A stretch of DNA of 43,577 nt from an uncultured Puniceicoccaceae bacterium (GTDB taxonomy: Bacteria; Verrucomicrobiota; Verrucomicrobiia; Opitutales; Coraliomargaritaceae). The notes under the pieces were generated by a model. The model saw nothing but the letters and a program-made list of their open reading frames with translations, ran no database searches and was not told the DNA's origin. Of the stretch, positions 21,615 to 33,116 are shown piece after piece. The position numbers and the translations under genes are program-made. How positions within the stretch are numbered: the stretch's first letter is position 1; every line of letters starts with the position of its first letter. Location of the stretch: positions 1-43,577 of the forward strand of contig CAJQOS010000004.1 of assembly GCA_905479975.1 (NCBI GenBank). The letters run 5' to 3'.

Positions 21615-23786
<2,172 letters not shown>

Positions 23787-23869
23787 TCTTTTATCTATGT
23801 TTTGCTTTATGCATTCTACGATACGTCGGGGATAGGACCTTGTTTATCGCCGGCCATGATCGGCATGGC

Positions 23870-23960
23870 CTAGGATAACATCGGGCGCGGAACGACCGAT
23901 GTTGAAATTTGAGACAGGCAGGACGGAGGTCTGCCGTAGATGGCGTCGCAATGCCTGTGT
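23870..23960 (-). other. Structured intergenic and leader region of pnp
   Basis: Between rpsO and pnp there are several inverted repeats: GGCCATG-ATCGG-CATGGCC (about 23850-23870), CATCGG...CCGATG (about 23878-23902), and GACAGGCA...TGCCTGT (about 23912-23960). In E. coli the pnp leader forms a hairpin used for autoregulation with RNase III. A similar role is possible here but unproven. The GACGGAGGTCTGCCG block at 23922 also recurs at 31823. Confidence 0.4.
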
Positions 23961-23978
23961 CACTCTGGGAAAGAAAAA

Positions 23979-24008
23979 TGCCGGACTCCCGTGTGGGAAG
24001 TCCGGCAT
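23979..24008 (-). terminator. Rho-independent terminator of rpsO
   Basis: TGCCGGACT-CCC pairs with GGG-AAGTCCGGCA around a GTGT loop, a 12-bp stem with one bulged base. On the minus strand it is followed by TTTTTC. It lies 17 bp past the rpsO stop codon. Confidence 0.9.
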
Positions 24009-24024: not shown

Positions 24025-24303
<279 letters not shown>

Positions 24304-31798: not shown

Positions 31799-31807
31799 GG
31801 TGGATTT

Positions 31808-31906
31808 GGAATTAAGAATTGGGACGGAGGTCTGCCGGTGAGGGCGGAGCAATGAAGCTGTTCTTTCGCCTTCGTTCCTAGTCCACCATTTCTAATTCAC
31901 AATTCC
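31808..31906. repeat. MITE-like element with 13-bp terminal inverted repeats
   Basis: GGAATTAAGAATT (31808-31820) and AATTCACAATTCC (31894-31906) form terminal inverted repeats that match except for the two middle bases. The interior carries GACGGAGGTCTGCCG at 31823, also found at 23922. The element separates the divergent TPR and PEP-CTERM genes and overlaps the upstream extension of the TPR frame. Confidence 0.6.
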
Positions 31907-31911
31907 TAAAA

Positions 31912-32228: not shown

Positions 32229-33116
32229 ATGAAACACTTATTTATTACATTATTTAGCCTTATGGCGCTATGCTCGGTGAGTGAGGCGGTGATTGGTGTG
32301 GCGTCTCCTTCAAGTGAATGGGTTTCGATTTTATATTTGAATGATGCTGATCCTACCGGGGATCAGCAAACGTCGGGTTCGGGGGGAGGCACGGAAGCTG
32401 ATATTGTTGGTGATGTCGATCATGCCGCTCTGTATAAGCAATATGACGAAGCGACCGATTATTTTGCTTTCCGTATTCGTATGGGAGCCGATAGCAGTCC
32501 TGCCGGTTATGACTCTGCGACACTGATTGGTATGGATGTGGATAGTGATGGTTCGCTCGATTATTATATCGGAGTTGAGGTCGATGGTGTGGGTGCAGCG
32601 AATGCAAAATTCGACATTGGCATCTATGCTTTTGACGGGCCGGCCTCATCGCCTGCCGAGACGAAGGCCGCATTGGCTTCTCCGAGTTCACAGATTTATG
32701 GTTATCAGATGGATAGCTCTAACTTTAATTGGTCCAGTGTGGCTGCGATTGATGGTATTACCGATCTGACGAGTGTGGATGCGGATGTGGATCAGGTAGG
32801 GAACCCTGATTACTTCCTGAGTTTCTCAGTGTCGTTTAGTCACTTAGCGGCTGCCATGGGCCTCGATGACGCGAGTTTACTAACAACGCCAATCTCATTT
32901 GCGGCCATCACCTCGCAGAATTTGAACCAGATCAATAATGATTTTAATGGTGTCGATGGCACCGATCCCAATTCCACTACGACATGGACTGATTCAGGGG
33001 GTGTCTCGGAGACTTATACGCCCGAATCCGAAGTTCCGGTGCCCGAGTCTGCGACGTATGCATTACTTTTCAGTCTCGTTATGTTGGGCTGCGCGGGATC
33101 TCGCCGTCGTCGCTAG
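32229..33116 (+). CDS. PEP-CTERM sorting domain surface protein
   Basis: This 295-aa protein has an N-terminal signal peptide (LFITLFSLMALCSVSEA). A beta-rich exported domain contains aspartate-rich segments such as GMDVDSDGSLDYYIG. The C-terminal sorting tail has the motif V-P-x-P-E-S, then a hydrophobic helix (ALLFSLVMLGCAG) and a basic SRRRR end. This is the PEP-CTERM signal cleaved by an exosortase. The protein should be attached to or released from the cell surface; no exosortase gene lies in the window. The core domain is unassigned. It ends before a terminator shared with the convergent SPFH operon. Confidence 0.88.
   Translation: MKHLFITLFSLMALCSVSEAVIGVASPSSEWVSILYLNDADPTGDQQTSGSGGGTEADIVGDVDHAALYKQYDEATDYFAFRIRMGADSSPAGYDSATLIGMDVDSDGSLDYYIGVEVDGVGAANAKFDIGIYAFDGPASSPAETKAALASPSSQIYGYQMDSSNFNWSSVAAIDGITDLTSVDADVDQVGNPDYFLSFSVSFSHLAAAMGLDDASLLTTPISFAAITSQNLNQINNDFNGVDGTDPNSTTTWTDSGGVSETYTPESEVPVPESATYALLFSLVMLGCAGSRRRR

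Follow-up and report, generated by a model that had tools for sequence, protein, structure and literature searches.

The Actino-pnp RNA lies in pnp leaders, and in Escherichia coli the autoregulation of pnp begins with RNase III cutting a duplex in the leader, which PNPase then attacks. In outline, E. coli PNPase autocontrols its own expression via the pnp leader (Jarrige 2001). The Actino-pnp motif (RF01688) is summarized as a structured RNA, listed as cis-regulatory, in Actinomycetales (PMC2864571).

The locus described here combines a structured pnp leader with dispersed repeats, for which several known classes offer a comparison. MITEs have terminal inverted repeats and a target duplication. 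Small dispersed repeats of cyanobacteria, SDR5 included, have been described (Elhai 2008), and SDR5 is reported to insert precisely inside another short repeat, HIP1, between nucleotides 3 and 4 (PMC4390886). REPs are summarized as tagged imperfect palindromes, most with stems of 6–9 bp, and have been reported in Opitutus terrae (PMC3733652). A literature search over titles and the opening parts of abstracts of freely accessible papers gave, among the matches listed, none on a Verrucomicrobiota pnp leader RNA or on the 27-nt module described below.

The window analyzed here is the whole stretch of 43,577 nt, which is contig 4 of the source genome (2.85 Mb in 117 contigs) of an uncultured Puniceicoccaceae bacterium. 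The first-pass annotation described the gap between rpsO and pnp as a hairpin-rich pnp leader that shares a block with a distant repeat, and read it as either an autoregulatory structure of pnp or a repeat recruited into the leader. Our comparisons suggest that the choice need not be made, as the gap holds a candidate regulatory structure in one part and, next to it, a dispersed repeat in another. The conserved element next to pnp is the more interesting half, the shared block appearing to be a dispersed passenger.

Layout of the rpsO–pnp gap

On the minus strand, rpsO is followed by pnp across a gap of 238 nt (Table 1). The gap is hairpin-rich, as first described. It holds four inverted repeats (23844–23878, 23877–23903, 23910–23962, and 23978–24008), and its sense strand, taken over 229 nt including the terminator, folds at −77.5 kcal/mol compared with −55.0 ± 4.2 kcal/mol for shuffled sequences (z −5.3; 0 of 200 shuffles as low). 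The count of terminator-like sites in a scan is one, no excess over shuffles (mean 1.0). No sigma-70-like promoter is found between 23600 and 24500 (shuffles 0.7), a pattern that says little for this phylum.

Table 1. Features of the rpsO–pnp region and of the second module copy in the window
Feature	Position	Strand	Description
pnp, polyribonucleotide nucleotidyltransferase	21615–23786	−	NCBIfam TIGR03591, 898.9 bits
Conserved pnp leader RNA element	23817–23851	−	Outer stem CGATA/TATCG, weak inner stem, 7-nt loop UCCUAUC
Hairpin GGCCATGCCGATCATGGCC	23852–23870	−	Directly 5' of the conserved leader element
Hairpin	23877–23903	−	Inverted repeat; fold z −5.0; no other copy at up to 3 mismatches in 12 genus genomes
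Dispersed hairpin, CAGGCAG...TGCCTG type	23910–23962	.	Arms 23910–23920 and 23952–23962; 27-nt module in loop
27-nt dispersed module ACGGAGGTCTGCCGTAGATGGCGTCGC at G^AA	23923–23949	+	Copy counts; empty site in G010
rpsO terminator-like hairpin	23978–24008	−	13-bp stem and T-run behind rpsO; by eye recognizable in relatives
rpsO, 30S ribosomal protein S15	24025–24303	−	NCBIfam TIGR00952, 121.9 bits
Second window copy of the 27-nt module	31824–31850	+	2 mismatches in 30-nt pattern

The hairpin at 23877–23903 was considered as a repeat and dropped, as a search of 12 genus genomes at up to three mismatches returned no further copy. Leaders of g3, g4, and g6 show, by eye, a hairpin at the place equivalent to that of the GGCCATGCCGATCATGGCC hairpin. 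Rfam gives no family at gathering score in the window. Hits under that threshold involve a model of a Rhizobiales sRNA (E 0.72), three models of miRNAs (best E 0.0057), and one of a snoRNA (E 0.93), and are taken as chance.

The 27-nt module and its host hairpin

The block GACGGAGGTCTGCCG, which had been noted to recur at 31823, is found exactly at 23922–23936 and 31823–31837, its sole exact places in the window. The genome count that the first-pass annotation proposed as a check returns 22 exact copies, with none for the reversed control, and a 30-nt version of the block gives 33 genome copies at up to three mismatches (control 0). The label "MITE-like" given to the second place (31799–31909) is a fair description, because its inverted arms are 75–85% complementary; the shared block sits between these arms, save its first two bases. 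Also in the window is an open frame of 295 amino acids (32229–33116, plus strand) that has no NCBIfam match at E up to 0.001.

The repeated unit is a 27-nt module, defined by 59 non-redundant copies among the loci collected. Its ends were recounted on named-genome copies found with an interior-only pattern (36, of which 19 are non-redundant), a restriction made because most searches had one or both ends in the pattern. Base −1 is G in all 19 and position −2 is mixed; the first two bases of the module are AC in 18 of 19, and the two bases after it are AA in 16 of 19. In 17 of the 19 copies the 3' end reads GCGNAGC with any base at N, the search pattern having fixed only GCG. Since the bases at both edges are conserved and position −2 is mixed, the ends are sharp. 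In the 59-copy consensus the ends, ACGG...GC, are not inverted repeats, and the longest stem seen by eye is 3–4 bp at most.

All 12 genus genomes contain the module, in 1 to 75 copies each (control 0). It is rare across the order, with matches at up to two mismatches in 7 of 177 genomes: five of the genus, G016 (3 copies), and G020 (1 copy). The 34 named stretches that carry the repeat are all assigned to Opitutia, Opitutae, Opitutales, Opitutaceae, Puniceicoccaceae, or, once, Verrucomicrobiota. A phage origin was dropped, as the 23-nt core of the module has 0 exact matches in viral_contigs.

Several copies depart from the basic form. Longer variants in L005, L009, and L021 (about 1501–1560) carry an extra internal hairpin of GTAAAAGACTTCGTCTCACGCGA type before the 3' end, and the GCGTCGCGT copies of G010 start like the longer variants of the source genome. 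At one similar place, the copies of L070/L076 and of L080 are set apart by about 60 nt lying between two module-like pieces, a difference that recombination might have produced. The L070 copy may lie inside an open frame (frame by eye). In L010 (1501–1527), the module falls within the last part of an open frame and precedes a tsaD-like gene (label by eye); its 27 nt are a multiple of three.

Empty sites are seen at two places. At the pnp site, G010, a genome of the same genus, has a plain hairpin, ACAGGCATTCCTGCCTGT, where the source genome has 27 extra bases in the loop. The two genomes share the terminator region and the left flank, and their right flanks diverge 9 nt past the insertion point because each has further, different hairpins. 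At the second site, compared across eight relatives, G008 aligns without gaps (by eye) to the source sequence minus 27 nt and has C where the source has the G that precedes the module. G010 has a heptamer array of different length at this site, the six other relatives are more divergent, and none of the eight contains the module. At a third site, the only relative found, again G010, has a different hairpin, and the neighboring gene is unmatched in the 10 other genus genomes, several of which are incomplete. Neither of the two empty sites shows a target duplication.

The hairpin that hosts the module is a dispersed repeat too: CAGRCAGRAATGYCTG occurs in the genome as 30 exact empty copies (control 0), and a hairpin similar to it holds the module at 23910–23962 and in several other copies. 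From the empty sites, we infer that the module inserted between G and AA in the loop of this second dispersed hairpin. A genome-wide proof of the 27-nt unit through heptamer arrays was attempted and dropped. Across 59 copies, removal of 27 nt gives no significant restoration of the arrays (2 copies, compared with 0 to 2 for other lengths), leaving L018 and L133 as anecdotes. Hairpins are restored in 6 or 7 copies at any length from 25 to 30 nt, so the unit length is not fixed by this measure.

A variable slot between terminator and leader element

In 29 loci of the same family (L087–L115), the terminator and the pnp-proximal part are recognizable by eye, and the middle of the gap ranges from next to nothing to some 300 nt of repeats. 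In g4, g5, g8, and L102 the gap measures just 126–171 nt; it retains the terminator and the proximal element but has hardly any slot or none. By eye, a long inverted hairpin of hexamers (CTTAATCATAATCTTAATC...GATTACGATTAGGAGTAAGATTAAG) fills the slot in L092, L098–L101, L103, L106, L108, and L111, and it is also seen in the slots of some same-genus loci.

One of the 29 gaps, that of the source genome, has the module in its slot. Because the middle is variable and the module occurs, among these gaps, in that of the source genome only, it is most simply explained as a passenger, and its placement looks like that of a recent one. The count of 1 in 29, together with the empty hairpin in G010, means that the repeat was not recruited as a conserved part of the pnp leader. 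The earlier proposal of a recruited repeat therefore stands in that the block and its hairpin are dispersed repeats, and falls as regards recruitment.

A conserved RNA element in front of pnp

The other proposal, a regulatory structure of pnp, also survives in altered form: the candidate is not the hairpin of the shared block. A separate, pnp-proximal structure at 23817–23851, supported by covariation, is the better candidate for regulation. This element aligns with 31 more leaders of the family, most of which read CGRYA ... GGUCCNAYCC ... URYCG. The loop differs in six leaders of the same genus (UCAAACU and the like), and in L116 no motif is found. The 7-nt loop starts 51 nt before the pnp start in the source genome and 30–57 nt before it in relatives.

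In an alignment of 17 sequences, 89.7% of cells are paired, a level that none of 500 shuffles attains. The covariation score of 0.198 is likewise above all 500 shuffles (0.112 ± 0.021) and above the slid versions (0.02–0.15). Two other measures on the same sequences are reached by chance: three pairs are changed on both sides, a number reached in 123 of 500 shuffles, and for further pair types 492 of the 500 reach the observed number. The leader alignments (17 plus 6 sequences of 32) were chosen and trimmed around the stems by eye, with near-identical sequences left out, and therefore favor pairing.

Tests of adjacent pairing and of the outer helix are less open to this bias, although some of their sites fall on the wrong loop (for example, L088). 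The former uses 110 leaders (32 of the family and 78 outside), in which a relaxed loop pattern gives 25 and 34 distinct sites. The letters flanking the loop pair in 65 of 75 cells within the family, where the maximum of 2000 reshuffles is 62, and in 66 of 102 cells outside it, where the maximum is 61. Of 56 sites, 29 have an outer helix of at least five pairs, where shuffling gives a mean of 15.8 and a maximum of 26. For the family alone, an outer helix of at least four pairs is not significant (60 of 400 shuffles reach the count), and one of at least six pairs is found at 1 of 24 sites, under the shuffled mean of 1.8.

A model of the element, R1, matches the source element at 41 bits (E 4.5e-8). 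It matches 13 of 177 order genomes, comprising one outside the family and 12 of the 15 family genomes, the list of 15 being that of the order-wide module survey, taken as the same draw. Each family match is the only one in its genome and lies just before pnp. The match outside the family, in G073 (L197), was set aside, as its 3 kb contains no pnp or rpsO match. Three family genomes are missed. In two of them, from g5, the leader keeps GGGUCC..CCCC within a different outer stem, GACUUAG/CUAGGUC (CUAAGUC in L114); in the third, G025, the pnp match starts at the contig end.

At least three further families have the capped hairpin in their pnp leaders. A strict hairpin, defined as UCCNAYC on a stem of at least three pairs, is found in 15 of the 32 leaders from the family, compared with a mean of 0.17 and a maximum of 2 after shuffling, and in 3 of 18 other leaders, from families f11, f16, and f20 (shuffled mean 0.1, maximum 3). 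Sixty further leaders of the order yield 13 (shuffled mean 0.52, maximum 3), of which 12 come from the 15 leaders of f16 and f20, with the loop 34–47 nt before the start. The remaining one, among 45 other leaders, lies 278 nt before the start and is probably chance. Nine altered loop patterns give 0 matches in seven cases, 1 in one, and 5 when the conserved A is changed to G. The stems under the same loop vary, with GGG/CCC, ACG/CGU, GCG/CGC, and AAAG/CUUU all represented. In pnp leaders of other families (L229–L235, L279, and L287), a hairpin with an AAUCCG loop (GGACAATCCGGTCC) is seen by eye at the place of UCCNAYC.

Taken by itself, the leader stretch of the source genome does not fold more stably than shuffles (z 0.28, with 127 of 200 reaching as low an energy). 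Its inner stem has two standard pairs only, and the stretch fails the strict hairpin filter. Together with the 47 of 60 further order leaders that are without the strict hairpin, this supports an element of certain families and not, so far, of the order as a whole.

A layered model and its alternatives

Comparison of related genomes shows that the element is conserved, covaries, and keeps its place before pnp, and we infer that 23817–23851 is a cis-regulatory element of pnp. The account we favor, and consider reasonably likely, is that the gap has three layers. At its upstream end would stand the rpsO terminator. The hypervariable middle would be a slot that gathers dispersed repeats and that, in the source genome, received the 27-nt module between the G and AA of a hairpin loop, without a visible target duplication. 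Next to pnp would lie the conserved leader RNA, made of an outer stem, an internal loop, and a short stem with a 7-nt loop, usually UCCNAYC. This RNA would be transcribed with pnp and control the stability or translation of pnp mRNA, most likely as a putative binding site of PNPase itself or of another RNA-binding protein. The module would have no role in pnp control and be tolerated because it lies outside the conserved element.

The hairpins could instead act together. The whole series, dispersed hairpins included, might form an autoregulatory RNase III/PNPase leader similar to that of E. coli; any long slot duplex would then serve, making the repeats interchangeable parts. The strong fold of the gap, terminator included, fits such a reading, as do the many same-family slots that hold a strong hairpin by eye, whether the short CAGGCA type or the long hexamer type (g3, g6, and some g1). 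However, the shortest gaps described above do with almost no slot while keeping terminator and proximal element, and slot content differs even inside the genus; we regard a functional hairpin series as improbable. If the proximal element acts by itself, as we favor, it may still answer to a factor other than PNPase, such as S15 from the upstream gene or a global RNA-binding protein. Its place between rpsO and pnp is compatible with this, and its loop is conserved above its stems, as at protein-binding sites. Yet the element precedes pnp, not rpsO, and R1 matches a family genome a single time, at pnp and nowhere else, which speaks against a global regulator; we see control by a factor other than PNPase as somewhat unlikely.

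For the module, the alternative considered is a REP element mobilized by an IS200-like (Y1) transposase, or RAYT. Y1 genes occur in 12 of 12 genus genomes, and their copy number correlates with that of the module over these genomes (rho 0.74, p 0.006), but per megabase the coefficient falls to rho 0.55 (p 0.06), and genome size correlates with module number too (rho 0.69). Insertion is precise and without duplication, the reverse strand including the preceding G has a terminal CGTC that resembles the tag of one REP group, and the GCGNAGC 3' end noted above could, we assume, form a stable mini-hairpin. Against this, the longest stem falls short of the 6–9 bp usual in REPs, and a RAYT gene flanked by copies is not seen: among 30 Y1 loci, a module-like copy is present in 3 rows, or 2 distinct places, and in G010 a copy lies no more than 1 kb from 1 of 21 Y1 places (two of 23 rows, being second halves, were dropped). 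A RAYT-flanked REP was rejected on these counts, and a REP moved by a RAYT seems doubtful to us.

Comparison with known systems

Of the known systems, the module appears to most resemble the small dispersed repeats of cyanobacteria. It is very small, has sharp ends, and occupies many unrelated places, and the two empty sites point to mobility. The likeness to SDR5, drawn by description, lies in the very small size and the precise insertion at a fixed point of another short repeat; the hosts are unrelated, and the module is a 27-nt unit at G^AA, often in the loops of CAGRCAG hairpins. With REPs, as far as their published summary goes, it shares the size class, the many copies, and a reverse-strand end like one of two REP tags, and it differs in lacking the tagged palindrome with a 6–9 bp stem (by eye) and a steady link to Y1 genes. 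The 27-nt module also departs from a MITE in its non-inverted ends and in the lack of a target duplication at both empty sites. As a tiny, exactly placed repeat with empty sites, it offers a further case for how such units move.

The leader element resembles Actino-pnp in preceding pnp, a placement confirmed here. It differs in that the listed hosts of Actino-pnp are Actinomycetales, and neither the window leader nor 10 loci of the source and other families match RF01688 at E up to 1. Like the E. coli leader, it belongs to a structured pnp leader in rpsO–pnp order, downstream of rpsO here too. Unlike that leader, its conserved part is a short two-stem structure with a conserved loop, and no long conserved duplex is seen. 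The UCCNAYC loop presumably resembles a T-loop. It is conceivable, and we offer this tentatively from sequence comparison, that the element represents an undescribed class of cis-regulatory RNA in Verrucomicrobiota of the Opitutales type: a two-stem pnp operator with a T-loop-like UCCNAYC cap, independent of the E. coli and actinobacterial leaders. The element is short enough for reporter tests. If this reading is true, control of PNPase by leader RNA would be convergent in three distant lineages. A conserved pnp leader of a different structure in Verrucomicrobiota would point to PNPase gaining an RNA operator repeatedly.
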